Shown here in pieces: positions 32,117 through 45,975 of a stretch of DNA of 64,000 nt (positions within the stretch are counted from its first letter, which is position 1; each line of letters starts with the position of its first letter). This DNA is from a virus. The notes beneath the pieces were generated by a model. The model made no database searches. It had not been told where the DNA came from and saw nothing but the letters and a program-made list of their open reading frames with translations. The stretch covers positions 62,001 to 126,000 of IMG/VR virus record IMGVR_UViG_3300037258_000301. One strand, given 5' to 3'. The position numbers and the translations under genes were made by a program.

Positions 32117-32146
32117 TTGCTCCTCCTCAGCGGCACATGCAATAAT
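32117..32146 (+). promoter_or_regulatory. Candidate promoter with TCAG spacer element
   Basis: TTGCTC (32117-32122) and AATAAT (32141-32146) are 18 nt apart. TCAG (32127-32130) is 10 nt before the -10. An 8-bp inverted repeat (GGCACATG 32132-32139, CATGTGCC 32150-32157) surrounds the -10, a position suited to an operator. It would drive the gene at 32215. Confidence 0.55.
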
Positions 32147-32214
32147 GCACATGTGCCGGATTTTGTGGTGTCTACCCATCGGGAGATCTCACCATCGTGA
32201 GGAAGGAGAGGCCC

Positions 32215-32520
32215 GTGTTGGAACAGGCCGTCTCTTCCGCTTTGTATCGACTCACCCTCCTGGAAAAGGCCCTTCACTCCACCGAATCGTGGTCCCTGTC
32301 CGTCGGTGCCGAGCGGGTACCGGCCACCCGCATCGTCACCGATGACGGCGTGACCTTTCGGGCCACGCTCTCCTCGCTGTGCGCGGCCGACCTGCCGATC
32401 GTGTCGTTGTGGTGCGGTGACGAACTCAGCGGCACTCGGGCACTCCCCTACGCGGATCACGGCGACGGCCTGGATGTCGAGTGGGGCATCAGCATGGGGA
32501 AAGGCGCGGTAGCGGCATGA
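32215..32520 (+). CDS. Small hypothetical protein before the helicase
   Basis: A 101-residue protein. GTG 32215 is chosen because AAGGAGAGG lies just upstream; an earlier in-frame GTG at 32197 has no ribosome site. The N-terminal helix is amphipathic (SSALYRLTLLEKAL), then the protein is beta-rich. It overlaps the helicase start by ATGA, so the two are coupled. The function is unknown; it may regulate or partner the helicase. Confidence 0.65.
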   Translation: MLEQAVSSALYRLTLLEKALHSTESWSLSVGAERVPATRIVTDDGVTFRATLSSLCAADLPIVSLWCGDELSGTRALPYADHGDGLDVEWGISMGKGAVAA

Positions 32521-34898
32521 CAACTCTGGAGCAAGCCCCGCCCACGACGGCGGGGCTTTTCCATACTCCCTGGTCGGGACTCCTCGACTTCCAGGCTGAA
32601 GGGGTCGCCCAGTGCTTCTACGGCACCGACCCCGAGAGCGGCGCCGACGGTGGCATGTTCTTGCTATTCGACACCGGCTGCCTCTATGGTGACGCCGAGA
32701 TCATGGTCAATCGAGGTGGGAAGGGGTTCCGGGTAGCGATCCGAGACGTTGTTCGCAAGTTCAACGGCGGCAAGACGCATGGCCCAAAGTGGGATCTGTC
32801 CATCCCCACCTTCGTCACACGAGAAGTTGATGGCGTTGTACGCCTGGGCCGTCTCACGGGCGCCTGGGAGAGCGGCGTCAAAATCACCTACACCGTCACT
32901 ACTGACACGGGTCGGACTATCCGTGCTACCGACGAACACCCCTTCCTGACCGAGCGCGGGTGGCTCCGTCTGGACCAACTCGTCGTGGGTGATGAAGTGC
33001 ATGTCCGAGGCTCTCAAGCAACCGGACACGCACGGAAGCCCAAGCCGCGTTATCGATCAACAGCTGGGCTTGTCCATCACCCTTACGCGACCCACCGCAG
33101 GGCGAAAAACAGTCCTTATCGCGTGGTAGAGCACCGCCTGGTGGCTGAGGCTGCGATGAATCACCTCGCCTATGAGAGGTACGTCGAGCGGCTCCGAATT
33201 GGACAAATTGACGGCCTGTGCTTCCTTGATCCTGACATTTACGCCGTACACCATATTGATCACAATCATCTCAACAACGAGCTGGTCAACCTCAAGATCA
33301 TGACACACTCGGAGCATCAAGCGCTCCATGCTGACGAGGGCAAGACCAACAGCGTCCTATACAAGATCGTGACGGAAAAGATCACTTCTGTGGAGCTCTT
33401 CGGAGAAGAGTCCACTTACGACCTTGCTGTTGAGGATGATCCACACAACTTCCTGGCCAACGGCTTCGTCGTACACAACACCGGTAAGACCGTCTGCTCG
33501 ATCGCGCTGGCCTGTCTCCTCATTGAGGACCAGAAGATCGACCGGGTCATTGTGGCCTGCGAGAAGAGCAAGCTCACCGACTGGGTGAGCGACTTTCAGA
33601 GCTTCTCCGAGTTGAGCGTCCGGAAGTACCACGGATCCAGTCGCAAGACGATGCTGACCAAGCACGACCCCCTGGTGGTGGTCAGCACCTACGAGACGTT
33701 GCGGGCCGACCTGATGGCCTTCCAGAAGAACCCCGGCAAGCGCGGTCGAGGTTCCCGCGTCGACGGGCCGCTGATGGACGATCTGGGGCTGCGATCCAGT
33801 CGCACCCTCTGGATCTTCGATGAGGTCACGAAGCTGAAGGGCCGTGGCAGCCAGATCCATCGGGCGTTCGACTACGCGCTGGGGCAGGCCCGCAAGCACA
33901 CCCATCAGCGCGTGATCGGTCTGACCGCGACGCCGGTCGAGCGGGACTTCGAGGACTTCTACAACCTCGGCCGCCTTGTCGTACCCAGCCGGATGCCTAC
34001 CGTCGAGGAGTTTGAGAAGCGCTACACGCGGGGCAAGGACATCCTCGGCCGCTACGTCTTCGTTCAGTACCGGGCCCGTGAGTTCGCCGCCCTGTTCTCT
34101 CCGGTGCTGATCCGTAAACGCAAGACTGATCCGGATGTGATCGAGCAGTTCCCGAAGATGGTCGAGCAGACCATCGGGGTCGACCTGCATCCGCAGCATC
34201 GCCAGTTCTACGACGCGACGCTGAGCCTGTTCGACGACCCGGAGGATCTTCGCGCGTTCGGTATCGCCCGGATGACCGCCGGCCACCCGTGCTCACACCT
34301 GCACGCCGACAACCCGGTCTCGCGCTCCATCGTGGAGACCGTCGGTGAGGAGTTTCTCCGTTCGGTGCCCTCCTCGAAGTCGATCGAGCTGATCAATCGG
34401 CTGACCCCCCTGGTCAAGGGACAGGGGGCGCAGGTGATCGTGTTCACCTTCTACGGCCGCTCCGTGCTCGTCGAGCTGGCCAAGGATCTGCGGGCAGCCG
34501 GGTTCACCGTGTCGACCTTCGCCGGAGGTATGACCACCGCCGAGCAGGACAAGGCCAAGACGGAGTTCACTTCCGGCGCCACCGAGGTGTTCCTGGCTTC
34601 TGACGCGGGCGCCCGGGGCCTGAACCTCGGCAACGCCTCCTACGTGATCGAGTTCGAGTCGGCGATGAACTACGCCATGCGCACCCAGCGGTTCAACCGG
34701 GCTAGCCGACTCTCTTCTACCGCGACCTCGGTGACCTGCTGGACGATGATCTGCCAGGCCACCATCGAGGTGCCCCTGTTCGAGCTGTGCATGCGTCGCA
34801 ACGCCGATCATGACATCGCGGTGGGGGACGAGGCTGACGACACCGCGTTCATCCCGGCCAGTGAGCGTCGCCGGATGCTGACGATTGGGCGCGGATGA
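32517..34898 (+). CDS. SF2/SNF2-type DNA helicase containing an intein
   Basis: A 793-residue precursor that would give a 526-residue helicase after splicing. The spliced P-loop reads DTG-TGKT, with the intein between the two halves. Helicase motifs follow: IFDEVTKLKG (Walker B), GLTATP (motif III), VIVFTFYGRS, ASDAGARGLNLG and QRFNRASR (motifs IV-VI). Domain order and the LTATP and GARGLNL motifs fit SNF2-like translocases used in phage DNA repair or replication restart. Its start overlaps the preceding stop. A terminator-like hairpin sits inside codons 6-15. Confidence 0.9.
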   Translation: MTTLEQAPPTTAGLFHTPWSGLLDFQAEGVAQCFYGTDPESGADGGMFLLFDTGCLYGDAEIMVNRGGKGFRVAIRDVVRKFNGGKTHGPKWDLSIPTFVTREVDGVVRLGRLTGAWESGVKITYTVTTDTGRTIRATDEHPFLTERGWLRLDQLVVGDEVHVRGSQATGHARKPKPRYRSTAGLVHHPYATHRRAKNSPYRVVEHRLVAEAAMNHLAYERYVERLRIGQIDGLCFLDPDIYAVHHIDHNHLNNELVNLKIMTHSEHQALHADEGKTNSVLYKIVTEKITSVELFGEESTYDLAVEDDPHNFLANGFVVHNTGKTVCSIALACLLIEDQKIDRVIVACEKSKLTDWVSDFQSFSELSVRKYHGSSRKTMLTKHDPLVVVSTYETLRADLMAFQKNPGKRGRGSRVDGPLMDDLGLRSSRTLWIFDEVTKLKGRGSQIHRAFDYALGQARKHTHQRVIGLTATPVERDFEDFYNLGRLVVPSRMPTVEEFEKRYTRGKDILGRYVFVQYRAREFAALFSPVLIRKRKTDPDVIEQFPKMVEQTIGVDLHPQHRQFYDATLSLFDDPEDLRAFGIARMTAGHPCSHLHADNPVSRSIVETVGEEFLRSVPSSKSIELINRLTPLVKGQGAQVIVFTFYGRSVLVELAKDLRAAGFTVSTFAGGMTTAEQDKAKTEFTSGATEVFLASDAGARGLNLGNASYVIEFESAMNYAMRTQRFNRASRLSSTATSVTCWTMICQATIEVPLFELCMRRNADHDIAVGDEADDTAFIPASERRRMLTIGRG
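32533..32560 (+). terminator. Terminator-like hairpin inside the helicase coding region
   Basis: AAGCCCCGCC (32533-32542) pairs perfectly with GGCGGGGCTT (32549-32558) across a 6-nt loop and is followed by TT. It covers codons 6-14 of the helicase. Translating ribosomes would melt it, so it could work as an attenuator that stops untranslated or late transcripts. Confidence 0.7.
32679..33479 (+). other. Intein with HNH homing domain, in the helicase P-loop
   Basis: A 267-residue intein. It begins at Cys (CLYGDAEIMV, the A-block) and ends with VVHN before a Thr at the +1 position; the B-block is near TDEHPFLTERGWLRL. The central region carries an HNH motif (HHIDHNHLNN, then THSEHQALH) and a basic stretch that could bind DNA. 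The terminal FVVHN matches a G-block. Insertion in a conserved nucleotide-binding loop is typical of inteins, which cannot be lost there without harming the host protein. Confidence 0.9.
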
Positions 34899-34919
34899 AC
34901 GCCACCAGGTCGTCTTCGG

Positions 34920-35183
34920 TCACTTTGCCTCCAGCGCGGTCGTGATGGCCCGCGCGGTCGGGCATGGCCACGGCTCGTCGCAGGTCGGACAGAACTCGCC
35001 TTCCCGTTCCTCGCCGTCGGCGTCGCGACCTTCCACATGCTCAGGCGAGTGCAGGTCGAGCACGGCGCGGAGCGCGGCGAATGCCGCCGAGGCGCATTCC
35101 TCGCGCAGGTACGCCTGGCCTTCGTAGCCGTAGGCGCCCGCGCCGTAGGCGTAGTCGTCGAGCAACTTCAGTGGATCACTCAT
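34920..35183 (-). CDS. Small acidic Cys-motif protein (last gene of leftward operon)
   Basis: An 87-residue protein. The ATG at 35183 overlaps the stop of the gene before it. The C-terminal half contains CPTCDEPWPC, a zinc-knuckle-like arrangement, within an acidic region (DADGEEREGE). It ends 21 nt from the convergent helicase stop, with no clear terminator between. Similar small Cys-containing proteins are common and uncharacterised in actinophages. The function is unknown. Confidence 0.6.
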   Translation of the reverse strand: MSDPLKLLDDYAYGAGAYGYEGQAYLREECASAAFAALRAVLDLHSPEHVEGRDADGEEREGEFCPTCDEPWPCPTARAITTALEAK

Positions 35184-35286
35184 CGGCTGCACCGTCCTTG
35201 TTGGCGAGGTAGGCGACGCGCGCCTCTGGAGTGTCGTCGATCCAGCCGCCGTTCGGGAGTGGACGAACGTAGTCGGGGTCGGTCAC
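35176..35286 (-). CDS. Very small coupled protein (36 residues)
   Basis: A GTG start at 35286 follows GGAGACCAC. The product is about 36 residues (MTDPDYVRPLPNGGWIDD onward), ending at TGA 35176. The start overlaps the preceding stop as GTGA, and the stop overlaps the next ATG (ATGAGTGA), so coupling supports it on both sides. It has no known motif. Confidence 0.6.
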   Translation of the reverse strand: MTDPDYVRPLPNGGWIDDTPEARVAYLANKDGAADE

Positions 35287-35522
35287 GTGGTCTCCTCAGT
35301 GGCGGGGAAGGGTGGTACCTCGATCTTCGTGACGCGGTACCCAAGGTTGACCAGGACGTTCAGGAAGGTACCCACACCATGCGCCTGCGTTGAGTGGCGC
35401 ATGAACTCGCGGTGCTCCCCCAGGGCGGTGTGGACGGCTTCGTACAGCTCGTCGAACTCACCGAGTTCCTGCCAGGGGATGTCATCGATATCGGGATCTG
35501 GGGCCTCGACGGGATCGGTCAT
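35283..35522 (-). CDS. Small acidic hypothetical protein
   Basis: A 79-residue protein. The ATG at 35522 overlaps the stop of its upstream neighbour by ATGA. The N-terminal 20 residues are strongly acidic (MTDPVEAPDPDIDDI). The rest is a helix-strand-helix (EFDELYEAVHTALGEHREF). Strong coupling to its neighbours suggests a shared process. The function is unknown; it could be a host-interacting or DNA-mimic-like protein. Confidence 0.6.
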   Translation of the reverse strand: MTDPVEAPDPDIDDIPWQELGEFDELYEAVHTALGEHREFMRHSTQAHGVGTFLNVLVNLGYRVTKIEVPPFPATEETT

Positions 35523-35950
35523 GACGACACCTTCTCCGCAGAGACGCCGAAGCCACGATCCACCTTGACCACGTAGCCACGCTTCTTCGCGCAGCACCCG
35601 CACAGCCGGATCTCTTCCTCGTCATCCTGCTCCCAGTTCACCCAGGCCAAGCCCTCGTTGTAGAACAGCACTCCGCAGTCGTCGCATCCTTGCTGGGAAA
35701 CCAGGTCGGAGACTCCCCCGAAGCGCCCGAGCCAGAACCACTCCAACGACTCACAGTGCTCGTCGTGCTCGTCCCACTCCTTGCGGATGTGTGGGAACAG
35801 CGTGTCGTAGCACCACGGTTCGACCTTCACGTAGTGCTTCGGCGCGATGCTCGGTCCAGGCCACCAGCCGAAGTAGTGGGCCCAGCGTTTGAACCACACC
35901 ACCGAGAGGTCATGTGGATTGGGACAGAAGTGGCAGTGACGTTCCTTCAC
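35519..35950 (-). CDS. Small zinc-binding hypothetical protein
   Basis: A 143-residue protein starting at GTG 35950, which overlaps the previous stop as GTGA. Cys pairs occur at CHFC (residues 6-9), CDDC (89-92) and CGCC (117-120), a likely pair of zinc sites. The interior is rich in Trp and aromatic residues (WFKRWAHYFGWW, LEWFWLG). I do not recognise the family. It could be a treble-clef nuclease-like protein or a host factor inhibitor. Confidence 0.6.
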   Translation of the reverse strand: MKERHCHFCPNPHDLSVVWFKRWAHYFGWWPGPSIAPKHYVKVEPWCYDTLFPHIRKEWDEHDEHCESLEWFWLGRFGGVSDLVSQQGCDDCGVLFYNEGLAWVNWEQDDEEEIRLCGCCAKKRGYVVKVDRGFGVSAEKVSS

Positions 35951-36441
35951 GACCCCTCCACCAAGGCCCGTAGGGCGGTTACGTACTTCTCCAGGCCCTC
36001 AGCGATCTCAGCGAGGGTCAGGGCCTCCTCCGGGGGATGGGGTACTCCCACCCGCGTTCGGGTCTTGGAGGCCAACTGGTGCCGCAAGGGGACAGCCTTC
36101 TGAGGTCGATCTCCTTCCTTCGGTGCCAGGTCGGGCATTTCGTTGGAGTAGGAGTTGATGTAGAAGGTCTTGCGGAAGATGGCGCCAGCCTCCGTCCCGA
36201 CGTAGATCGTGTCGTTCTGGCTCAACCAGACGTGCATCGGCTCGTTCTGGCGACCCCACCGGACCATGACCAGTTCCTGGTCGGGCTTCATGATCTTCCG
36301 CGCCTTCGCGATGACCTCTCGATCATGCGAGACGGACTTGATCATTTCTTCTCGGAAGGTCACCATCTTCTCGCTCGGTTGATAGATCATCATGATGATG
36401 TGCTGTAAGCCGGTGGACCCGGCGGGCGACCCGTCAGACAT
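35947..36441 (-). CDS. Hypothetical protein
   Basis: A 164-residue protein whose ATG 36441 overlaps the end of the preceding gene. Residues 50-100 are beta-rich and basic (KPDQELVMVRWGRQNEPMHV). The C-terminus is a helix. It carries no recognised motif, membrane segment or signal peptide. It is the fourth-longest gene in the coupled leftward set. The function is unknown. Confidence 0.6.
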   Translation of the reverse strand: MSDGSPAGSTGLQHIIMMIYQPSEKMVTFREEMIKSVSHDREVIAKARKIMKPDQELVMVRWGRQNEPMHVWLSQNDTIYVGTEAGAIFRKTFYINSYSNEMPDLAPKEGDRPQKAVPLRHQLASKTRTRVGVPHPPEEALTLAEIAEGLEKYVTALRALVEGS

Positions 36442-36688
36442 CGGTCTTCTTCATCGGCGTGTCGTTGGAAAATGCGGAGGAGAAGATCTGGAAGGTATCC
36501 GAGGAGGTCCTGGGCGCGATCGTGTCGAGGACCAGCACTACGGGTTCGCCGGGGGCGAAGCAGTCGGGCATGACGTCCCGAAGGATGCCGTCGCTGGTCT
36601 CGTCCCAATCCGGGGCAAGTAGCACCACCTCGTAGTCCAACCAGTCCGGATGGGCTTGCAGTTGAGCGAGCAGTTCATGGCCGTTCAC
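36434..36688 (-). CDS. Small acidic hypothetical protein
   Basis: An 84-residue protein. GTG 36688 is chosen over the ATG at 36724 because it forms a GTGA overlap with the previous stop and has GGAG 8 nt upstream. It is acidic (DWLDYEVVLLAPDWDETSD), with a beta-alpha-beta pattern. The function is unknown. Confidence 0.58.
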   Translation of the reverse strand: MNGHELLAQLQAHPDWLDYEVVLLAPDWDETSDGILRDVMPDCFAPGEPVVLVLDTIAPRTSSDTFQIFSSAFSNDTPMKKTDV

Positions 36689-37053
36689 GCGGAAGACTCC
36701 GTTCCGACCCCCTGAGGGGTCCACTGGGCAGTGTTCGGAAGAGTGGGGGGATCACTTTCTCGGGTCGCGCGCAGATCGTTCAGGAGATCTCTGACGAGCT
36801 GTTCGACCTGCTCGCGAAGAGCGAACGGCGGGAGAAGTCCCCGGGTAGAGACGACCGTGGGGTTGGTCTGCCCGTCCTTGCCGGTGAGCGGCTTACCGTC
36901 GATCATCAACTCGATGGCCATGAACCCGACGAATTGCCCGTCACCGGCCGGTTCTGGCAAGACTCCCAGGGTGACATCCCATGAGGTGTCCTCAGGCTCG
37001 GCCATCAGGATCTCTTCGACCCACTGGCTCCACTGTGCGGAGATACGTTGCAT
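36685..37053 (-). CDS. Hypothetical protein
   Basis: A 122-residue protein. It ends in a GTGA overlap with the next gene and starts 5 nt after the previous stop. Helical in part (REQVEQLVRDLLNDLRATRE) with a beta first half. No known motif. The start at ATG 37053 follows a weak ribosome site. The function is unknown. Confidence 0.58.
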   Translation of the reverse strand: MQRISAQWSQWVEEILMAEPEDTSWDVTLGVLPEPAGDGQFVGFMAIELMIDGKPLTGKDGQTNPTVVSTRGLLPPFALREQVEQLVRDLLNDLRATRESDPPTLPNTAQWTPQGVGTESSA

Positions 37054-37058
37054 GGATG

Positions 37059-37241
37059 TCAGTCTGGCACGACGTCGTAGAACTCATCGGGCGTGTTGGC
37101 GGTATCGGCGATGGCCTGAGCCATCACTCGGTTCATGACAGCACCGGGGAAGCCCGGTATGGGAATCAGCTCGTCAAGGACGACGGCGAGCTTCTTCTTC
37201 CGGTGCTGACGACGGACCTGTTTCGCCTGACGGTTACTCAT
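37059..37241 (-). CDS. Small basic hypothetical protein
   Basis: A 60-residue protein whose ATG at 37241 overlaps the stop of the preceding gene as ATGA. The first 24 residues are highly basic (RQAKQVRRQHRKKKL) and probably bind nucleic acid. The rest is a helix ending in an acidic tail. The charge split suggests an RNA- or DNA-contacting accessory factor; the function is unknown. Confidence 0.58.
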   Translation of the reverse strand: MSNRQAKQVRRQHRKKKLAVVLDELIPIPGFPGAVMNRVMAQAIADTANTPDEFYDVVPD

Positions 37242-38173
37242 TGTGTCTCCAGGGAGATGAGGGCACGACGGTAGGAGATCATGGGAGGATTCGGACGAAG
37301 TAGCATGCGGTTGAACCACCGAGCATGCATCCTCTTGCGGAAGTAGATGTCAGCGCAATGGGTGACGTTCCCGTAGGTACGGATGAGCTGCCGAACAGCC
37401 TTGCGCAGGAGATACCAGCGTTGAGGCACTGGTGGTGGCGCTGTGTCCAGGATGGCTTTACGCAGGACGGCGTTAGGCGTGATCCGGACACCCAGTTCGC
37501 CCTGAGGCGTGGACGGTACCTGCATGGCTAGGTGGAATAGCCGTAATGCCAGCTCCGAGGAGGGAATCAGGACCGCGTGTTCGGCAGCACTGCTTCGGGG
37601 GGACTGATAGGTCGTGACCAGGCTGGAAGGGGCATCGTCGGCAGTCCCGGTGGGGAATGCCACCGCTGTCTCACCGAGCTTGGCGTGGTAGTTGCTCTGA
37701 TTACCCGCCTTGAGCTTGGTCGTCGAGATCAGATACACCGGTCGATCTGCCGCGATGAACCCGCGTAGCTGCTCCTCCGCGATCTTGGCAGCATGGAACG
37801 GCTTGCCGTGTTCACATGTTCCCCGGATGCAGGTGGCGTGACGGGTTTGCGCATGTCCAGTTCGTGACGTTAGTGAGGTCAAGGTGATGGGATTCTCGCA
37901 CTTGGCTCCAGTTTTCCTGACCAAGGCACTAGCTGCGCTATGGATGATCCTTATGTCTCTTGCCCAGGAGTTCTGCTGTTCAGGAGTGAGAGAGTACTGG
38001 AATTCCGCATGCTCCCCCGAAGTCCTGCCAGCAAGATTGGAGGCTTCCCTCGCTCGGTCCACCCTCGCTGCGCTCGGGATTCCTCGCTCGGTCATCCTCC
38101 AATGACGACGAGCTGCGCTCGTGGGAGGGTTGGTCGACGAGCTGGATTTGCCATGAAGGCGCTGGTACGGCAC
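37238..38173 (-). CDS. Hypothetical protein, head of the coupled leftward operon
   Basis: A 311-residue protein. GTG 38173 has AAGGA 6 nt upstream. An ATG at 38095 has GGAGG touching it (too close), so the longer form is favoured. Cys residues lie at about 113 and 118 (CIRGTCEHGKPFHAA), with a His-rich neighbourhood that could bind zinc. The C-terminal third is basic with many Arg (RWYLLRKAVRQLIRTYGN). The first ~60 residues are coded by a repetitive, GC-rich stretch. I do not recognise the family. Confidence 0.6.
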   Translation of the reverse strand: MPYQRLHGKSSSSTNPPTSAARRHWRMTERGIPSAARVDRAREASNLAGRTSGEHAEFQYSLTPEQQNSWARDIRIIHSAASALVRKTGAKCENPITLTSLTSRTGHAQTRHATCIRGTCEHGKPFHAAKIAEEQLRGFIAADRPVYLISTTKLKAGNQSNYHAKLGETAVAFPTGTADDAPSSLVTTYQSPRSSAAEHAVLIPSSELALRLFHLAMQVPSTPQGELGVRITPNAVLRKAILDTAPPPVPQRWYLLRKAVRQLIRTYGNVTHCADIYFRKRMHARWFNRMLLRPNPPMISYRRALISLETQ

Positions 38174-38208
38174 AATCAGTCCTTAGTCCGATGTCGTTTT
38201 GGGAATTG

Positions 38209-38250
38209 ATGACCTTCAGCTCTGATCAGCTGGAGGTCATTCCCCTTTTT
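38209..38250 (+). terminator. Rightward terminator between leftward genes
   Basis: ATGACCTTCAGCT (38209-38221) pairs with AGCTGGAGGTCAT (38228-38240), with one G-U wobble and a 6-nt loop. TCCCCTTTTT follows on the plus strand. There is no rightward gene between 34898 and 39437, so its role may be to stop rightward (antisense) transcripts from the helicase operon. Confidence 0.6.
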
Positions 38251-38275
38251 GGGGACAAACCGGAACGGTAGCGGA

Positions 38276-39331
38276 TCAGGGTGTCCCTACGCCAGCCAGG
38301 GCTTGCTGGTAGGCCGCGACCCAGCGGTACGCGTTGGCCTCGGTGGTCCGACCCAGTACCCACTCCCGGGCTTCCTTGCCGAGCTTCTGCCGCGTCTCGG
38401 GTTCCTTGATCAGATGCGTGAGACACTCCGTCCACTCCCGGGGATTACCGGCCAACCAGTAGCCCCGGTGCCCCTCGTCGAAGGCCCGAAGATAGGGCCC
38501 CACCGGGGAGGCGATCACGGGGATACCCAGGGCGCCGAGTTCCAGCAGCCTGATGTCCGATTTGCTCTCGTTGAACGGGAACGGGTAGAGCGGGGCCAGC
38601 CCGATGTCGAAGTTGATCGCCCGGTAGTAGTTCTCCACCCCGTTCACCCAGGCCGTGTGGTGGGTCCGCCCTCGGATCGAGGCCACTCGCTCGGTGTAGT
38701 CGACCGGACAGATGCAGTGGAAGATCGTCTGCGGGTGGGCCTGGATGACCCGCTTCACCGAACGAGCGCACTCACCGAAGTCCCGGTTGTGGGTGGAGCT
38801 ACCCGCCCAGCCGATCACCAGGTCGTCCTCTCCGATGACCTGTCGGCCTTCGGCGTCGGCTACGGCGTGGGAAGGAACCAGCTCCGTCAGGAACTGCGGG
38901 ACGGTGTTGGGTAGCACCACCACCGGGACCGAGGCGTGCTCGGTCACCACGTTGGCCAGGTGCTCGGTGGACACCGTGATCAGGTCGGCGACCGCTACGT
39001 TCTCCTTCAGTCGTCGGAGCCGCTCCGGGTCGAAGAAGGCGTGGGCGTCGTTGGACCGGTCGATGTTCCACAGATCGTCGTCGAGATCCATGACCAGGGC
39101 GAAGTCTCGCCGGCCATGGCGAGCCAGGGCTTGCCACAGGGCGGTCGGGGACGGTTCGACGAGTCGCTGCCCGACCAGGACATTCAGACCCTGCTCCTGG
39201 CAATTCTCCAGGGTGGGCATTGAGGTGCCGTGCGTGCAGGCGTGGCCGATCAGGGACATCCGGGACAGGGGAAGATAGCCCCGGTAGTACCCAGGACCGT
39301 GCATGTCGGCCAGACAGAAGTGAACGCGCAT
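38276..39331 (-). CDS. GT-B type glycosyltransferase (family 4-like)
   Basis: A 351-residue enzyme. The start at 39331 (MRVHFCLADMHGPGYY) opens with the N-terminal strand typical of GT-B proteins; an earlier in-frame start is implausible. The region VVVLPNTVPQFLTEL and the later INFDIGLAPLYPFPFNESKS followed by RLLELGALGIPVIAS match GT4/GT1-like donor-binding motifs (E-x7-E: Glu in the 'F..SKSDIRLLELGALG' helix). It could glycosylate virion proteins or a small host molecule; phage virion glycosylation is known in some mycobacteriophages. Substrate unknown. Confidence 0.85.
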   Translation of the reverse strand: MRVHFCLADMHGPGYYRGYLPLSRMSLIGHACTHGTSMPTLENCQEQGLNVLVGQRLVEPSPTALWQALARHGRRDFALVMDLDDDLWNIDRSNDAHAFFDPERLRRLKENVAVADLITVSTEHLANVVTEHASVPVVVLPNTVPQFLTELVPSHAVADAEGRQVIGEDDLVIGWAGSSTHNRDFGECARSVKRVIQAHPQTIFHCICPVDYTERVASIRGRTHHTAWVNGVENYYRAINFDIGLAPLYPFPFNESKSDIRLLELGALGIPVIASPVGPYLRAFDEGHRGYWLAGNPREWTECLTHLIKEPETRQKLGKEAREWVLGRTTEANAYRWVAAYQQALAGVGTP

Positions 39332-39369
39332 GGTTCGCAGCGTCTCACGCGAACATGCCACTCACCATC

Positions 39370-39398
39370 TTGGTCGACTCAGGGCAATGACGGACACT
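39370..39398 (+). promoter_or_regulatory. Candidate promoter with TCAG spacer element
   Basis: TTGGTC (39370-39375) and GACACT (39393-39398) are 17 nt apart. TCAG at 39379-39382 lies 10 nt before the -10. It drives the gene at 39437, in the divergent region opposite the glycosyltransferase. It aligns with the elements at 40388 and 43299 (CTTGGT-N4-TCAG-N10). Confidence 0.6.
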
Positions 39399-39436
39399 GG
39401 TCAGCAGAGAGATCACTACCCATCCTGGAGCGCGTC

Positions 39437-39943
39437 ATGTACGACCTCGACCAATTCGACGACGGGGACAACCCCGAGTTCAGATACCCCCTGTTCACCC
39501 ACGAGCAGCTCATGTCGGTGCCGACCGAGCCGATCCCCACGCAGTCCCTTCCGACTGTGCGAATGTCACCACCTCTCGCCCCGGCGATGGAGGTTTACAC
39601 CGGTCAGGACGCTCAGCTTTCCACTCGTGAGCTGATGTGGGGCCTGATGGTGCTGGGGACGATTGCGCCACTCGTGGGGGTGCTCGCCGATGGCTTCCTG
39701 GGCTTCCTCGTCGGCACCCTCGTGGGCTTCGCGCTGGGGAGCGGTGCCACCATCGCCCGTTACCTGCGGATCAAAGCCATCCGGGCCGGCCGTACCGACC
39801 TGGAGTTCAGTCAGGCCGAGGTCAAGACGGAGACCGTCCTGGGGGTTCTCGTGCTCGTCTTCAGCATCCTGTCCGTGGCCAGTTATGTCGAACGCCGCCA
39901 TGTCCGCCTGATCGCTCGTGAGATCCAGCGTGGTGGCCGGTGA
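39437..39943 (+). CDS. Membrane protein
   Basis: A 168-residue protein. ATG 39437 is chosen because it follows a GGAG and the upstream in-frame stretch is outside the promoter. Two hydrophobic segments span residues ~70-108 (LMVLGTIAPLVGVLADGFLG, then LVGTLVGFALGSGATIA), and another lies at ~132-150 (TVLGVLVLVFSILSVASYV). The C-terminus is basic. It is coupled to the next gene by a GTGA overlap. The function is unknown; it may help in lysis or membrane remodelling. Confidence 0.65.
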   Translation: MYDLDQFDDGDNPEFRYPLFTHEQLMSVPTEPIPTQSLPTVRMSPPLAPAMEVYTGQDAQLSTRELMWGLMVLGTIAPLVGVLADGFLGFLVGTLVGFALGSGATIARYLRIKAIRAGRTDLEFSQAEVKTETVLGVLVLVFSILSVASYVERRHVRLIAREIQRGGR

Positions 39944-40383
39944 CCGCGCGCATGAGGTTCGTGCTGTGTACCGGTGGAATATTCCTGCTGGTACTGGCGG
40001 CGGTCGTACTCGCTCTGTTGCTGCCGATCCCTGCTGCCACCCCGAGCACGCCCCCGCTGGCTCAGACCGCGACACCCACACCGACCCCGACCAGCACTTG
40101 GGGGCTCATCGAAGATCTCGACACGGCGGGGCTTCCGCTGTTGAGTACGAAGGCCACCGTGACCGAGTATCAGCGGGAGACCTACACCGAGGCCGCCGTG
40201 GCCAAGGCGCCGTGCACGGTGGCCGCCGAGGGCGGTTCATGGTCGATCATTCTCAGTCTGGACGAAGAGCTGCCGGTGGGGCCTACTCAATACGGTCAGA
40301 TGGTGGCGATCGGCATCCGGGACGAGTGTCCGCGCTATCTGGCCGTGGTCCCGCCGGACTGGCTACCGTCTCCGACGTCGTGA
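39940..40383 (+). CDS. Signal-anchored hypothetical protein
   Basis: A 147-residue protein. GTG 39940 overlaps the previous stop. Residues 7-29 form a strong hydrophobic segment (RFVLCTGGIFLLVLAAVVLA), followed by a Pro/Thr-rich linker, which suggests an outside-facing, anchored protein. The remainder is a small beta domain with Cys at about 89 and 129 that could form a disulfide. The function is unknown; superinfection exclusion and lysis roles are possible. Confidence 0.6.
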   Translation: MTARMRFVLCTGGIFLLVLAAVVLALLLPIPAATPSTPPLAQTATPTPTPTSTWGLIEDLDTAGLPLLSTKATVTEYQRETYTEAAVAKAPCTVAAEGGSWSIILSLDEELPVGPTQYGQMVAIGIRDECPRYLAVVPPDWLPSPTS

Positions 40384-40387
40384 CCCC

Positions 40388-40416
40388 TTGGTGGTGTCAG
40401 GGTGGGTTGGTAGTCT
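40388..40416 (+). promoter_or_regulatory. Candidate promoter with TCAG spacer element
   Basis: TTGGTG (40388-40393), spacer 17, TAGTCT (40411-40416); TCAG at 40397-40400 lies 10 nt before the -10. It would drive the DinG-like gene at 40463. It overlaps the stop of the gene before it. Confidence 0.6.
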
Positions 40417-40462
40417 CTGGTGTGTCACCAACTCCTCATCCCCAAACCAAGGAGTGATCCCC

Positions 40463-42466
40463 GTGTCCTGGACCGACGCGCAAGAGGCATTCCGGACCAG
40501 CCTCCCGGGTTACGAAAACCGGGTCGAGCAGACGCGGCTCGCGCAAACCATCGAGAAGGCCCTGGCCAACGGCAAGCACCTGACCGCGCAGGCCGGCACT
40601 GGTGTCGGCAAGAGCTACGCCTGTCTCGTTCCGGCCATCGACCATGCTCAGGTCACTGGCTTGCCGGTCATGGTGGCCACCGAGACGAAGGCATTGCAGG
40701 CGCAATACGCCAAAAAGGATGTTCCGTGGCTCCAGGAGCACCTGGGTGTGCCGTTCACCGCCGCGCTACTCAAGGGCCGCAGTAACTACCTGTGCCGTGC
40801 TCGCCTGGCCGAGGCCACCCCTGCTGAGGTGTTCAACATCGAGGCGCTCCGGGAAGAGGTCGCCTCGGTGCCGGACATGAATGGCGACATGGAAGACCTG
40901 ATCACCGAGGTTGACCTGGCCCAGCGCCGGGCGTTGACCATGAGTTCCGAAGAATGCCCCGGCAAGTCCGACTGCCCCTTCGGCGGTACGTGTTTCGCTG
41001 AGCAGGCCAAGGCGCGAGCCAAGACCGCCGATGTCGTGATCATCAACCATCACCTGCTCGCCACCGAGGCCGCCCTGCGCGAGGCAACCCACACCGATGA
41101 GATGCCCGACGGCATCAGTTTCCTCCCCGATTTCAGTGGACTGATCATCGACGAGGCGCACGGGTTCCAGGACGTGGCCACCGACATGCTCGGCGGCGAG
41201 TTCGTCGAGCGTCAGCTCCTGCGCTTCGCCTCCGACGCCGGGTCGCTGCTGGGAGACCGGCAGCTCACCAAGGGTCTGGAAGCCTGCGCGCACAGCCTGT
41301 TCCTGAACCTGGGGAACTGGATGACGCAGGAGAACCGTCGCAACCGCAGCCGGGACACCTCGATGGCATTGCCGCACTCGGTGATCGAGGAGTATGCCGA
41401 CGAGTTCGTCATGGTCACCGATGAAGTGCGGTTGATCAGGCAGCACATCAAAAAGATGGACACCTTCGGTAACGACCAGGCTGCCGCCCGCAAGAAGCGC
41501 ATGATCAAGCGGGCCGAGAACCTGTTCAATCGCATGGCCAGGTTCGTCACCGCGTCCTCCGATGACCTGGTTCGCTGGATCGAGCTGGCTTCTGATCGCC
41601 GTGGCGACACTCTGAAGTTGCACTTCGCGCCCCTGGACGTGTCTCCGGTCCTGGAGCAGTGGTTGTGGTCTCGGCACACCACCGTGCTGATGTCCGCCAC
41701 CCTGGCCGTCGGCAGCGACTTCGGCTTCATCACCAAGCAGCTCGGCGTGCCCGACCCGATCACCTTCGACGCCGGTACCCCGTTCGACTACCCGAATCAG
41801 GCCGCGTTCTTCTGCCCGCAGACCAAGTGCGACCCCACTTCCGGTAGCGAATGGCAGGCTCGGGTGGCCATGGTCATTCGCAAGCTGGTCGCGGCGGCCG
41901 ATGGCCGGGCACTGATCCTGTTCACCTCGCGCCGGGAACTGGAGGCCGCCTGGGTGGCCTGTGCCGAGACGATCGAAGACCTGGGCATCACCGTGCACAA
42001 GCAGATCGAGGGTGGCAACAACCGGGCGTTGGGCGAGGAGTTCAAGACCGATGAGCGGTCCGTCCTGTTCGCGTTGAAGTCGTTCATGACCGGCTTCGAC
42101 GTGCAGGGCAGCGCCCTGGAGCTGGTCATCCTGAACAAGCTGCCCTTCGCCAACCCCGGTGACATCATCCTCAAGGCCCGCTGTGACGCCCTGGACCGCG
42201 AGGTGGAGCGCACCCGCCAGAACAAGTGGGCGAACGGCTCTTTCTCGAAGATCACCGTCCCGTCGATGACCCTGGTCCTGCTCCAGGCGTTCGGGCGCCT
42301 GATCCGCACCAAGAACGATCGTGGCGTCGTGGTGCTCCTGGATGACCGGATCTACACCAAGAACTACGGCAAGAAGATTCGGGCCGCGATGCCTCCGGCG
42401 CAGGTACTGACCACCCTGGCCGATACCGAGGACTACCTGAGCGCCTTGCGCACTACGGTAGGGTGA
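40463..42466 (+). CDS. DinG/XPD-type SF2 DNA helicase with Fe-S cluster
   Basis: A 667-residue helicase. Walker A is GTGVGKS (residues 45-51) and motif II is DEAH (230-233). Four cysteines at about 111, 165, 171 and 177 (RxxC...ECPGKSDCPFGGTC) match the Fe-S cluster of XPD/DinG helicases, followed by VIINHHLL. The C-terminal motifs LMSATLAVGSD, SFMTGFDVQG and QAFGRLIRTKNDRGVVVLLD are also present. GTG 40463 is set by AAGGAG 8 nt upstream. DinG helicases move 5'-3' and resolve DNA damage structures and R-loops, useful during phage replication or for countering host defences. Confidence 0.92.
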   Translation: MSWTDAQEAFRTSLPGYENRVEQTRLAQTIEKALANGKHLTAQAGTGVGKSYACLVPAIDHAQVTGLPVMVATETKALQAQYAKKDVPWLQEHLGVPFTAALLKGRSNYLCRARLAEATPAEVFNIEALREEVASVPDMNGDMEDLITEVDLAQRRALTMSSEECPGKSDCPFGGTCFAEQAKARAKTADVVIINHHLLATEAALREATHTDEMPDGISFLPDFSGLIIDEAHGFQDVATDMLGGEFVERQLLRFASDAGSLLGDRQLTKGLEACAHSLFLNLGNWMTQENRRNRSRDTSMALPHSVIEEYADEFVMVTDEVRLIRQHIKKMDTFGNDQAAARKKRMIKRAENLFNRMARFVTASSDDLVRWIELASDRRGDTLKLHFAPLDVSPVLEQWLWSRHTTVLMSATLAVGSDFGFITKQLGVPDPITFDAGTPFDYPNQAAFFCPQTKCDPTSGSEWQARVAMVIRKLVAAADGRALILFTSRRELEAAWVACAETIEDLGITVHKQIEGGNNRALGEEFKTDERSVLFALKSFMTGFDVQGSALELVILNKLPFANPGDIILKARCDALDREVERTRQNKWANGSFSKITVPSMTLVLLQAFGRLIRTKNDRGVVVLLDDRIYTKNYGKKIRAAMPPAQVLTTLADTEDYLSALRTTVG

Positions 42467-42494
42467 AGCACGGTGAACACAGTTTGACCCCCTG

Positions 42495-42530
42495 ACGACG
42501 ACCTCGCCTACCCGCGAGGTCGTCGTTTTT
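42495..42530 (+). terminator. Intrinsic terminator after the DinG-like gene
   Basis: A 13-bp perfect stem (42495-42507 with 42514-42526) and a 6-nt loop end in TTTTT. It begins 28 nt after the helicase stop and separates its transcript from the next gene. Confidence 0.88.
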
Positions 42531-42593
42531 GCGCTGTGTCCGTACCGGCGTCGCCCCCGTAATCAGCGACATCACACTTTTCCTGGAGGAATG

Positions 42594-42956
42594 ATGACCG
42601 ACCCCACCCCCGTCGAGGCCACCCCCATCGACTCTGACGAGGCCCGGAGTGCACTGCACACTGCCCTGGAGGATGTGGAGGCCGCGTTCCAGAACCTCTA
42701 CGGCAAGGTCAGCAGCAAGGTAGCCGCGCTCCTTTCGCACCTGCACGGCCAGGCCGAAAGCCTGACCGATGAGGCCGAGACTGACGCCAAGGAAGATGCC
42801 TCGGAGGTCGCGGCCGACGTCAAGACCATCACCGTGACCGGCCAGAGCGCCCTAGGTGGCGGTGTCAACCCCAACGCGGTGCACCCCACCTCGCCGCCGG
42901 CCAACGTCCCGGTGCAGACGGAGACTCAGCAGGTCGTTCCGCCGGTGCAGGGATGA
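42594..42956 (+). CDS. Acidic hypothetical protein
   Basis: A 120-residue protein. ATG 42594 is preferred over 42591 because GGAGG then lies about 5 nt away. It contains a helical, acidic middle (SLTDEAETDAKEDASEVAAD) and a Pro-rich end. It overlaps the next gene by ATGA. No motif; it may partner the membrane protein downstream. Confidence 0.6.
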   Translation: MTDPTPVEATPIDSDEARSALHTALEDVEAAFQNLYGKVSSKVAALLSHLHGQAESLTDEAETDAKEDASEVAADVKTITVTGQSALGGGVNPNAVHPTSPPANVPVQTETQQVVPPVQG

Positions 42957-43282
42957 CCACCTCGGTGCCGGCCACACCGACTTCGTCTTTCGTGCAGCGC
43001 GAACCCGCCCTGACTTACGGAGGGGGCCTCACTGGCGCATCGCTGATCATTGATGCGATCGTGGGGGTGGGGATTCCCCTCACGGACACCACCAGAATCG
43101 TGATCATGCTGGTGGTGTCCGTGGTGGGGCCGCTCATCGGTACTCTGCTGACGCGACAGAAGGTCTTCAGCGCCGCCACCGTCGCCACGCTGAAGAAAGA
43201 CGCCGAAACCATCCTGGGCGACGTAGCACATCCCGAGGTCACCCCCACCCCCGACGACACGGGGAAGCACTCCGCGCCCTGA
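42953..43282 (+). CDS. Holin-like membrane protein
   Basis: A 109-residue protein. It has REPAL then two hydrophobic segments, residues ~22-45 (YGGGLTGASLIIDAIVGVGI) and ~48-67 (RIVIMLVVSVVGPLIGTLLT), and a charged tail (TRQKVFSAATVATLKK). This 'REPAL...TR..V' arrangement matches small membrane proteins in many actinophages that are often called holins. It could form the lysis pore, but no endolysin gene is visible nearby. The start overlaps the previous stop. Confidence 0.6.
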   Translation: MTTSVPATPTSSFVQREPALTYGGGLTGASLIIDAIVGVGIPLTDTTRIVIMLVVSVVGPLIGTLLTRQKVFSAATVATLKKDAETILGDVAHPEVTPTPDDTGKHSAP

Positions 43283-43298
43283 CCGTGAAGGTGACCTC

Positions 43299-43327
43299 TT
43301 GGTGTTGTCAGAGTGACTCGCTACACT
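43299..43327 (+). promoter_or_regulatory. Candidate promoter with TCAG spacer element
   Basis: TTGGTG (43299-43304), spacer 17, TACACT (43322-43327). The sequence TTGGTGTTGTCAG is nearly identical to the element at 40388. TCAG (43308-43311) ends 10 nt before the -10. It would drive the gene at 43367. Confidence 0.65.
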
Positions 43328-43366
43328 GAGCCAGTCACCAGCTCCACCCCCATCACGGAGGTCATC

Positions 43367-44089
43367 GTGCCCGGCACCTTCATCGAAAAATCCCAGGTCG
43401 CGTCCATCGCGGGCGGTCTGCTCCGCAAAACCGGCGCCACCGCGTCCCAGCTGGTCAAGGCCATTGCCGTGTTCAAGAGCGACCTGGCCACGCGGCCCGT
43501 CACCCCGTTGCCGGACCGCAAGATCCTGGAGCTGCCCGCAGAGCAGGCCAAGGCCCTGGGGATGCTGGCCCGGATCAGCGCGTCTCTGCCGGTGCCGCTC
43601 AAGCGCCGGGCGCTGAACGAGACCGAGATGGCCCAGTACATCGAAGCTCGGGAGGCGTTCCTTCTGGCCAAGAAGGCTCTGGAGCGTTTCGACGAGAACA
43701 CCAAGGCCGTCTTGCACAACCACTTCGACGCCAAGGTCGAGGCCAACGGCTCGATCGACGACTCCACGCCCTTCCACGCGAAGAACGGCTGGTTGTGTGT
43801 CGAGGACAAGAGCAGCGGCGCGGCCGGCGGCGAGAAGAACAAGATCACCCGCGAGCTGTCCGGGGGCGGCCCGTCCTTCGGTGAATCGCACCTCGCCGCC
43901 ATGCGCGACGACGGTGTCATCACCGAGCGGGAGTACCAGTCGCTTACCCGCATCCCGCGCTACCGCGAGCTGAACGACGACGCGGTGATCGCCAAGGTCG
44001 CTGCCGACTCGGAGTTTGCCGCGCGGGTCCTGGAGTACTCCACCGAGATCGCGCCGACCCCCTCGATCCAGCTCCGGCCGGCGAAGTGA
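43367..44089 (+). CDS. Hypothetical protein
   Basis: A 240-residue protein. GTG 43367 is set by GGAGG 5 nt upstream and lies 40 nt after the promoter. It is alpha-helical (LNETEMAQYIEAREAFLLAK) with a C-terminal region rich in Glu and Arg. No motif was recognised. It overlaps the next gene by GTGA. The function is unknown. Confidence 0.6.
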   Translation: MPGTFIEKSQVASIAGGLLRKTGATASQLVKAIAVFKSDLATRPVTPLPDRKILELPAEQAKALGMLARISASLPVPLKRRALNETEMAQYIEAREAFLLAKKALERFDENTKAVLHNHFDAKVEANGSIDDSTPFHAKNGWLCVEDKSSGAAGGEKNKITRELSGGGPSFGESHLAAMRDDGVITEREYQSLTRIPRYRELNDDAVIAKVAADSEFAARVLEYSTEIAPTPSIQLRPAK

Positions 44090-44454
44090 GCGAGTCCTAC
44101 GGTCGCCGCACACTCTCGCGGGAGGCCCGCGTCATCCTGTTGGATGACGCGGCGCCCGTTGAGGGGCAGTACTGGACCGCGCCTGACGACGCACCCCCGT
44201 GGTACTCGATCGGTGAGGTCAGCTCGTTCTTCCTCGGCTACCACAAGCGCTGGCTGACCGACATCCTTGACGAGGACCCGTCCATGGCCCTGTACGGGTC
44301 GCTGATCAACGGTCAGCGCCGGTACCGCCTCTACGACGTCGAACGCACCGTGCACGCGCTCACGGCCGCTCAGCGCCTCTCTCCGCACCGTGCTCGGCTG
44401 GCACTCCTGCATGTCCGCCTAGCTGCTGTGCAGTACGGCTACCTCGATCTCTGA
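44086..44454 (+). CDS. Putative helix-turn-helix DNA-binding protein (MerR/excise-like)
   Basis: A 122-residue protein. WYSIGEVSSFFLGYHKRWL near residue 39, then YRLYDVERTVHAL, resembles the MerR or excisionase-type recognition domain ('sIgEva' then 'R.Yr..Dve'). It could be a phage regulator or recombination accessory. The GTG overlaps the previous stop. Helix-turn-helix identity is moderate; the role is open. Confidence 0.6.
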   Translation: MSESYGRRTLSREARVILLDDAAPVEGQYWTAPDDAPPWYSIGEVSSFFLGYHKRWLTDILDEDPSMALYGSLINGQRRYRLYDVERTVHALTAAQRLSPHRARLALLHVRLAAVQYGYLDL

Positions 44455-44467
44455 CTAAGGACGCCCC

Positions 44468-44794
44468 ATGACCAGTCCCCCATCCGGTAGCGACGGAGTG
44501 CCCGTCAATGGTGGTCCGTTCATCGAAGGGTCTTCCATGCCGATGCCCAGCAACTCTATGTGGAACGATCTCTCTCGCTTCGTCGACAAGAACGCCGTCG
44601 AGACGGAATCCCGGCTCGGTGAGATCAGCGATGTTCTCCTCGATGCTCGCGAAAAGATCTCTGAGGCTCAGAAGTACATCGCTGAGGCGCAACAGAATCT
44701 GGCGCAGCTCAGGAAGTTCGTCATTGGACAGGTGTTGGTGATACTCGTCCTCCTAGGACTGTTGATGATCATTTTTCTTGCGTTTCGACTCTGA
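44468..44794 (+). CDS. Tail-anchored coiled-coil protein
   Basis: A 108-residue protein. Residues 40-80 form a coiled coil (SDVLLDAREKISEAQKYIAE). Residues ~84-106 are a strong membrane segment (VLVILVLLGLLMIIFLAF) at the very C-terminus. It may anchor replication or lysis factors at the membrane; the function is unknown. Confidence 0.65.
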   Translation: MTSPPSGSDGVPVNGGPFIEGSSMPMPSNSMWNDLSRFVDKNAVETESRLGEISDVLLDAREKISEAQKYIAEAQQNLAQLRKFVIGQVLVILVLLGLLMIIFLAFRL

Positions 44795-44806
44795 GAGGAC
44801 CTCTTC

Positions 44807-45046
44807 ATGGCACTGAACCCGGAGCAGATCCGCTCTCTGGCACGAGAGGACTTCGTCGAGGCTGTCTACCTGTCGTTGGGCGCCGCACAGGAGCAGGGGC
44901 TCCTCAGCTTCCCCACTTCGATCGAACGGCGTGCGGCGGCGACTCTGGTGTTCGACCAACTGACCATGCATGTCATGATCAAAATGTTGGTCGGCATGGC
45001 CCCCTCCATGAATCGGTCAGCGGAAAGCCAGGAGCGTTTCGGATGA
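44807..45046 (+). CDS. Small hypothetical protein upstream of the exonuclease
   Basis: A 79-residue helical protein with AGAGGAC before ATG. Its stop overlaps the exonuclease start by ATGA, so it is coupled to it. No motif was recognised. It may aid the exonuclease; the function is unknown. Confidence 0.6.
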   Translation: MALNPEQIRSLAREDFVEAVYLSLGAAQEQGLLSFPTSIERRAAATLVFDQLTMHVMIKMLVGMAPSMNRSAESQERFG

Positions 45047-45924
45047 GCAAGGTCCTCTACATCGACGGGCCAAACTTGACCATGCGTGCTCTGCATGCCG
45101 GCTTGCACGGTCCGATGTTTTCCAACGGCGCCGACACCGCAGCTCTCACGATCTTCATCAACTCGCTGGGCAAGCTCGTTCGTGAAGAAGGTCCGAGTTA
45201 CCTGGGTATTGCGTGGGATTCCCCCCATAAGGGTTTCCGTCATACCCTCTACGAGGGCTACAAGGCCAATCGGGCTGAGGCTCCAGTATTGGACGCCAAG
45301 GCATCCACCTTCGCGCTGGTGCGCGAGTTCTGCGACCTCGCTGGCATCCGTAGCCTGTCGTGCCCCACCATGGAGGCCGACGACATCATTGCGCGGCTGT
45401 GGTATGTCGCGGTGCAGGGACCGATCGTTATCGCCAGCTCCGACCACGATTTTCTCCAACTGGCCGGGCCCAATCCCAGCGGTGTCTCCACCGAGGTCCT
45501 GCGTTTCGGCAAGGAGAATGACCGATGGGATGCGGCCAAGGTCAGTGAGTACCACGACTCACCTGAGCACTATCCCCTGATCGCCGCCCTGGCCGGTGAT
45601 CCCAGCGACAATATTCCCGGCATCAAGGGGATCGGCCCGAAGAAGGCCGTCAAGCTCCTGGAGAAACACGATTGGGACCTGGAGTCCGCTCTGGATGAGT
45701 ACCCCGAGGAGCGGGAGCGGGTACGGACCTTCTTCCAGATGATCGATCTTCGGAACTCGAACTTCTTTCCGCTTCTGGCCGATGCCGCGCCGGTACCAGT
45801 TGGTGAACAGGCGCGTACTGCGTCACCTGAGCTGATGACATTCCTGGAGGACTACGAGCTGAAGGGAGCTTTGGCCAAGTTCCGCGCGGGCACTTTCTGG
45901 CGCGCAATCCCTTACAGACGCTGA
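45043..45924 (+). CDS. 5'-3' exonuclease (Pol I N-terminal / FEN family)
   Basis: A 293-residue nuclease. Asp8 (YIDGPN), the acidic cluster EADD (111-114), DHD (134-136) and DPSDN (186-190) are metal-binding residues typical of the family. The helix-hairpin-helix IPGIKGIGPKKAVKLL (191 onward) confirms the 5'-nuclease fold. It would remove RNA primers and degrade 5' ends, with the phage polymerase. It overlaps the preceding gene. The phage has no separate Pol I; this free nuclease can stand in for its exonuclease domain. Confidence 0.92.
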   Translation: MSKVLYIDGPNLTMRALHAGLHGPMFSNGADTAALTIFINSLGKLVREEGPSYLGIAWDSPHKGFRHTLYEGYKANRAEAPVLDAKASTFALVREFCDLAGIRSLSCPTMEADDIIARLWYVAVQGPIVIASSDHDFLQLAGPNPSGVSTEVLRFGKENDRWDAAKVSEYHDSPEHYPLIAALAGDPSDNIPGIKGIGPKKAVKLLEKHDWDLESALDEYPEERERVRTFFQMIDLRNSNFFPLLADAAPVPVGEQARTASPELMTFLEDYELKGALAKFRAGTFWRAIPYRR

Positions 45925-45945
45925 TATTTCGATAGGTGACCCGTC

Positions 45946-45975
45946 TTGTAGTGGATCATCCGAGGGGTTTAGAGT
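45946..45975 (+). promoter_or_regulatory. Weaker candidate promoter of the replication operon
   Basis: TTGTAG (45946-45951), spacer 18, TAGAGT (45970-45975). TCAT (45956-45959) lies exactly 10 nt before the -10, as TCAG does at the other sites. It lies within the 166-nt gap before GTG 46091. The rest of that gap holds no clear gene. Confidence 0.45.

Follow-up and report, generated by a model that had tools for sequence, protein, structure and literature searches.

A lineage-variable promoter element repeated before non-structural genes of a large contractile-tailed phage, and a candidate phage-encoded reader

The locus and its promoters

The window, the whole 64,000-nucleotide stretch analysed here, comprises bases 62001-126000 of a 151,624-bp phage record (G000), and it carries three plus-strand copies of a repeated promoter element. 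The first copy, CTTGGTCGACTCAGGGCAATGACGGACACT (39369-39398), precedes a pair of membrane-protein genes (39437-39943 and 39961-40383). The second, CTTGGTGGTGTCAGGGTGGGTTGGTAGTCT (40387-40416), precedes the gene for a DinG-like helicase (40463-42466, plus strand; phrog_2488, E 1.5e-62; PF13307) and is followed by a presumed transcription start and leader, GTCACCAACTC (40424-40434, plus strand), with GTCAC 6-7 nt after the -10. The third, CTTGGTGTTGTCAGAGTGACTCGCTACACT (43298-43327), has its presumed start and leader, the conserved GTCACCAGCTC, at 43334-43344 (plus strand) and stands before an operon whose first gene (43367-44089, plus strand) encodes a core protein of unknown function present in 10/10 genomes compared. 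The same operon encodes, at 44086-44454 on the plus strand, a predicted MerR-like winged-helix protein of the DUF7229 type, which we propose as a candidate reader of the element. A further core protein, with a resemblance to sigma-70 region 4, is encoded at 59927-60544 (plus strand) and is not our favoured reader.

We also note that the minus-strand block 34920-39331, which diverges from the 39369 promoter, holds about nine leftward genes, mostly without a family match and including a glycosyltransferase-like gene, and that the SNF2-type helicase gene at 32481-34898 is split by an intein (Intein_splicing, E 3e-14) that carries an HNH endonuclease (HNH_3).

Matches to tail sheath and baseplate proteins identify the phage as contractile-tailed. 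Its capsid protein is 55-61% identical to those of Gordonia, Rhodococcus and Mycobacterium phages of the Stormageddon/Finch/E3/Myrna type, and by this protein it has at least 176 relatives in IMG/VR; a relative found via the polymerase, G001, is 52% identical, and no DNA-level match to G000 was found. The parts examined yielded no lysogeny genes.

Aligned copies of the element in G000 give the consensus CTTGGTGRTGTCAGGG-N8-TANNNT-N6/7-GTCACCAGCTC, behind which come a Shine-Dalgarno sequence and the start codon. The -35 hexamer is TTGGTG, a 17-nt spacer separates TTG from TANNNT (GANNNT in two copies), and TCAG ends exactly 10 nt before the -10. The element thus has the make-up of a SigA/sigma-70-type promoter, with a TTG-type -35, a spacer within 16-18 bp, TANNNT and a presumed purine start 6-7 nt downstream. 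GTCAC occurs 6-7 nt after the -10 in 16/17 copies, and its position is presumed to be where transcription should start; the only copy without it, at 39370, is also a weaker one.

The initial annotation had placed the element at five sites in the window (32117, 39370, 40388, 43299 and 45946), had cautioned that chance might account for it, and had named a genome-wide motif search as the check. The caution was justified, since in the window alone the pattern with one mismatch gives 8 matches against 4.0 expected and 6 of 100 shuffles reach 8, which is weakly significant. The genome-wide search came out clearly in favour of the element: CTTGGT-N4-TCAG is found nine times on the forward strand of G000 (three copies inside the window and six outside), zero times in reverse, and zero times as the reversed control pattern. 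A 30-column matrix was then trained only on the six outside-window copies, leaving GTCAC out of the training, and all positions of G000 were scored on both strands. Three of the five sites stand, 39370 with 16.0 bits (rank 14), 40388 with 24.9 (rank 10) and 43299 with 24.0 (rank 11), and at all three the arrangement first described (TTG, 17-nt spacer, TCAG exactly 10 nt before the -10) holds. Sites 32117 (score -19.6, rank 9532 genome-wide) and 45946 (-16.1, rank 4475) are ruled out as family members by the same held-out matrix. Both sites overlap hairpins. The one at 32117 stands directly behind the structural operon and reads CGGCACAUG...CAUGUGCCG followed by UUUUG, with -16.1 kcal/mol and z -1.3; in the one at 45946 the stem pairs GAGGGG with CCCCUC, and z is -2.5. 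Scans of both sites for a consensus promoter and for a terminator found neither.

In the matrix scan 18 forward positions exceed 8 bits, and the best reverse position reaches 11.6 bits. About 17 copies (16-17) were counted as clear, the 18th, at 126101, being weak. All 17 are on one strand and lie on an arc of G000 from 101.4 kb through the end to 36.7 kb; the intervening 64.7 kb, which holds the structural genes, has zero clear copies, an avoidance that random placement would give with a chance of about 1e-4. The genes behind most copies are small non-structural ones, and the start codon stands 65-76 nt from the first base of the element in 16/17 copies and 102 nt from it in one (132152). The G000 copies show no palindromy (dyad fraction 0.41 vs 0.42 for shuffled columns). 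The full element has no match in the viral contigs searched or among 84,980 bacterial and archaeal species genomes, and the set of papers searched contained no earlier report of the element, of its reader, or of a function for DUF7229.

Spacer elements in related phages

Genes were called in ten genomes and their upstream regions searched for repeated 30-mers, six more records being added later. Most of the relatives analysed have SigA-like promoters with a spacer of 17-18 bp and a spacer element of their own, at 11-32 promoter-like sites. Among 30 records, G000 has ten occurrences of its own core, which is otherwise seen just once, as an isolated match in G001, and the G001 palindrome is confined to G001. 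The element of G001 is CTACCCGATCGGGTAG, that of G010 CGTAGCAAG-N4-CTTGCTACG, that of G026 and G029 ATTACAG-N5-CTTGCTAT/A, and that of G019 TTACAAGGTTCCTTGATAA, while G004, G008, G011 and G018 have a palindrome around CTCCAAGGATCCTTGGAG. In G009 the element CTACAAGGATCCTTGTAGTA was seen only in a second search, the first having given a start-associated sequence, and in G015, G016 and G021 the spacer element is less clear. Dyad symmetry exceeds that of column shuffles in 7/12 phages, is borderline in an eighth (G011) and is absent in G000, with hand-picked site sets for four of the phages in this test.

A GTCA-like start motif is common to several phages, and the leaders read GTCACCAGCTC in G000, CCGCACNGGAGG in G001 and G010, and CGACTCCCCGGAGG-like in G004, G008 and G011. 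Other sequences recur near these promoters and starts. In G001 (L018-L025) the start-associated CCGCACNGGAGG that it has in common with G010 stands 31 times directly before start codons on one strand and once on the other, and some of its promoter palindromes have long covarying arms. Upstream regions of G004, G008 and G011 carry a start-associated CGACTCC(C/T)C(G/A)GGAGG, with CTCC directly before the Shine-Dalgarno sequence, those of G009 a start-associated CCTGTGAAGGGGTGAG, and those of G018, G016 and G011 a second, AT-rich palindrome, GATTTTAAAATC, near promoters.

The differing elements recur at the same genes. The phage's own element stands at the orthologous DinG gene in 7/9 genomes, at gene 133539 in 7/9 and at the 43313 gene in 4/9. 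Between phages with differing elements, ortholog pairs (which are non-independent) divide into 46 with an element at both members, 37+37 with one at a single member, and 1310 with neither. The element family, its bias of strand and location, and the lineage-specific versions at orthologous genes are computed directly, and so are the conservation of the winged-HTH protein described below and the element-bearing promoter of its operon. The same genes with different letters in the same place are what would be expected of a co-evolving operator, and the pattern fits a putative operator co-evolving with a phage-encoded regulator. Since each relative has its own version, usually a palindrome, in the same places, the comparison suggests that a virus-encoded DNA-binding protein, and not bacterial machinery alone, reads the element.

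Among named isolates, a first look at Finch (79 kb viewed) showed no such repeated SigA-spacer element, and no clear repeated element was found in 66 kb of Mycobacterium phage Phrappuccino. Phrappuccino encodes what appears to be an ortholog of the winged-HTH protein, gp105, together with the sigma4-like gp130, at L218 7777-8391 and 24333-24962, and as an isolate it is a possible laboratory model.

Candidate readers of the element

The protein encoded at 44086-44454 follows the MerR/excisionase winged-helix sequence plan (family consensus FTVQEVAKLFFGKGPDWLRWR...RTETGNRYYTLADVERMA), with no effector domain recognised. Searched with its profile, all 14 genomes of at least 107 kb have a single copy each, and in 12/14 (calls by eye) the promoter of its operon bears the local phage's element, as does 43298 in the window; in G001 and G015 the operon is without it. 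MerR_1 is matched by 6/9 orthologs (best E 4.7e-4) and DUF7229 by 8/9. Of other sequence models, NCBIfam FtsR gives E 5.7e-5, with HspR and BldC weak, and the G000 member, the most divergent at 22-31% identity, has no match among MerR sequence models when searched by itself. The top structure matches of two AlphaFold models are mostly MerR-superfamily chains, but none is strong in itself: Foldseek E is 0.46 at best, and the highest Z values, 6.5 and 4.6, are in the common range.

The recognition segment of this protein tracks the operator after polymerase identity is taken into account (partial Mantel r 0.41, p 0.005, 12 phages, with the site sets of four hand-picked), and in operator tracking among 33 core proteins the winged-HTH protein, a candidate chosen after the fact, comes first (0.55), with two virion proteins next (0.51 and 0.50). 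Judged by these comparisons it is the most likely reader of the element and our leading candidate, and it appears to fit a lineage-variable element better than the sigma4-like protein does.

The latter had been put forward in the initial annotation as a partner of the element. It is a real core protein, found by profile search in 14/14 genomes, with a weak resemblance to sigma region 4 (PF08281, E 0.024, below cut-off); a sigma-factor annotation is also borne by its relative gp84 in Finch and by a Phrappuccino protein encoded in the same gene neighbourhood. Within the sigma4-like protein it is the putative recognition segment that is conserved (60% vs 47% for the whole domain). This segment shows no tracking of the element (partial r -0.19), and for that reason we reject the protein as the lineage-specific partner. 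Where a phage-encoded sigma factor would combine regions 2 and 4, only the region-4-like protein was found: a search for Sigma70_r2 gave nothing in 14/14 genomes, and a control search found it in 10/14 named genomes. The sigma4-like protein may serve another promoter class; it leaves the variation of the spacer element from phage to phage unaccounted for.

Three further proteins were set aside as readers. A GntR/UTRA regulator (17638-18366 of G000, minus strand) was seen in just one of the 10 genomes compared, that of G000, and cannot explain a pattern seen across the family; it lies beside a protein without a family match, and the pair (L009 16415-18366, or 16.4-18.4 kb of G000, minus strand) may be an acquired island. 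Lsr2-like proteins are of a nucleoid-silencer type and are not site-specific enough. One protein from the non-structural region of G000 (in alignment A2) has matches to the two Lsr2 domains, with E 3e-9 and 2e-5, and may be such a silencer. The conserved CxxC protein at 60849-61553 is encoded near the large terminase gene and is more likely a packaging protein.

Discussion

The idea of a phage factor dedicated to reading a fixed spacer element has gained ground, in that the element keeps to one strand, is genome-wide and sits at promoters, and that the orthologous genes of relatives carry differing elements at the same promoter position. That factor had been imagined as a phage activator or a modified RNA polymerase; an activator is possible, and we do not favour an altered polymerase or sigma specificity, because the TTG/TANNNT frame is common to the phages while the spacer element varies and because no Sigma70_r2 was found in the 14 genomes. 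Our own reading, for which we see an even balance of probability, is that of a promoter-operator dispersed over the phage genome, in which the host reads a SigA-type promoter, an operator lies in the spacer, and a MerR-like protein acts as autoregulated repressor. Host RNA polymerase would read the TTGGTG / 17-nt spacer / TANNNT promoters, into whose -35/spacer region an operator for the phage regulator would be built, and about 17 copies would fire separate non-structural transcription units. On entry, the host polymerase would open all of these promoters together. The winged-HTH protein, which one of them (43298) would express and which would hence be autoregulated, would accumulate, bind between -35 and -10 and close the whole promoter class, and this shut-off would leave polymerase free for later genes. 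Binding, repression and timing are the parts of this scheme that we infer. Against the scheme, the G000 element is without a dyad, and it is in G000 that the winged-HTH protein is most divergent.

We lean slightly towards repression as the action of the winged-HTH protein. Alternatively, the same element might be used by this or another phage DNA-binding protein to activate middle promoters. T4 MotA, for instance, acts at a -30 box, MerR proteins act on spacer palindromes, and the promoters that MerR proteins activate have spacers of 19-20 bp. An activator would suit the weak -35 of G000 (TTGGTG), which counts against a repressor, as well as the poor hexamers of several other phages (TTGTAC, TTGCTA), and the MerR superfamily that supplies the top structural matches includes many spacer-binding activators. 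The spacers found here, however, are 17-18 bp rather than 19-20 bp, and the -10, together with the -35 of some phages (TTGAC in G011), is good enough unaided. We rate a repressor somewhat higher because a 17-bp spacer is optimal for unaided transcription, and regard activation as unlikely, if still a serious competitor. A smaller chance attaches to sigma appropriation, in which the sigma4-like protein (59927-60544) would reprogramme the host polymerase. Its presence as a core protein in 14/14 genomes, its weak region-4 matches and its kinship to the Finch protein speak for this, but its recognition segment is conserved while the spacer element changes completely, it has no region 2 alongside it, and its gene lies near packaging and recombination genes, a neighbourhood that makes late transcription as likely a role. 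We therefore think sigma appropriation improbable.

Two other readings seem to us very improbable. One takes the spacer elements for hairpins in RNA or DNA that serve the gene upstream as terminators or processing sites and overlap promoters by chance. Long covarying arms do occur, as in the perfect palindromes around the -10 of G001 and in the 147428 copy of G000 (CCCGAACCCCTTGGTCGACCAAGGGGTTCGGG), but the G000 element was rejected as a palindrome or hairpin for want of an overall dyad, G008 mixes left and right half-site types freely, so that pairing is broken, and the position of the elements is fixed relative to -35, -10, +1 and the start codon. We give just as little credence to a host transcription factor site, or a host promoter preference, with versions that differ as the hosts do. 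The hosts of these metagenome phages may indeed differ, but the G000 element is unmatched in the bacterial and archaeal species genomes, and a host factor would leave unexplained why the element is linked to a phage gene that varies with it and has a copy of its own.

The promoter-operator reading leads us to a tentative speculation, which we consider more likely wrong than right, about this clade of large actinobacterial myophages. Its members would share one architecture (dispersed promoter, spacer operator, start motif and a single autoregulated MerR-like regulator), within which each lineage would have rewritten operator and recognition helix together, giving a private early-promoter address and an immunity-like specificity without known lysogeny. 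With a private address for each phage, a resident or co-infecting relative could not switch off its early promoters. If the operators are such addresses, this would explain the differences that close relatives show in dispersed phage repeats such as ESAS, and work in actinobacteria would gain orthogonal promoter-regulator parts. How large lytic actinobacteriophages control transcription has been little explored, and the analysis yields a genome-wide promoter class with predicted starts, a candidate regulator and, for the study of specificity, about a dozen natural pairs of operator and recognition helix.

Comparison with known systems

The candidate resembles MerR regulators (BmrR, SoxR, HiNmlR, CarH, BldC) in its predicted winged HTH, the classical members using -35/-10 palindromes, and differs from them in having no recognised effector domain, a 17-18 bp spacer, a phage origin and lineage-specific sites. 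The stoperators of Cluster A mycobacteriophages (discussed in PMC4351075) are many directional, asymmetric sites, mostly away from promoters, within genes or between them, that silence the prophage. The family described here is likewise one of directional, asymmetric, lineage-specific sites with a phage-encoded DNA-binding protein as presumed reader, but its copies are found at promoters, all 17 in G000 precede a gene start, and the parts examined hold no lysogeny genes. The L1 repressor similarly pairs asymmetric operators with a phage-encoded DNA-binding protein (PMC1934351). Cluster O mycobacteriophages carry more than 30 copies of a 17-bp palindrome, TGTTCGG-N3-CCGAACA, expected to bind a dimeric phage protein (PMC4351075); they too are a group without known lysogeny and with repeated presumed operator sites, most of which lie away from promoters, whereas those here are inside them (PMC4351075). 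Dispersed promoter repeats in a myovirus are also known from halovirus HF2, whose intergenic repeats carry promoters, although HF2 is an archaeal virus and the abstract on it describes no lineage-variable operator series with a named regulator (PMC8707807).

Also comparable are the ESAS/SAS repeats of Cluster K mycobacteriophages, which occur in many copies and one orientation upstream of non-structural genes, the ESAS being an inverted repeat that is followed by a start-associated Shine-Dalgarno sequence (PMC3203893). The ESAS consensus varies by subcluster, and the authors read this variation as different protein specificities (PMC3203893). The G000 element shares with ESAS/SAS the many copies, single orientation, non-structural genes and lineage-varying consensus; the sequences are unrelated, and the link proposed for Cluster K is to translation initiation (PMC3203893). 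The leaders here do not have the SAS form of GGGATAGGAGCCC with 17-bp inverted repeats. Unlike ESAS, the G000 element is registered to -35, -10 and +1, and it comes with a named candidate regulator.
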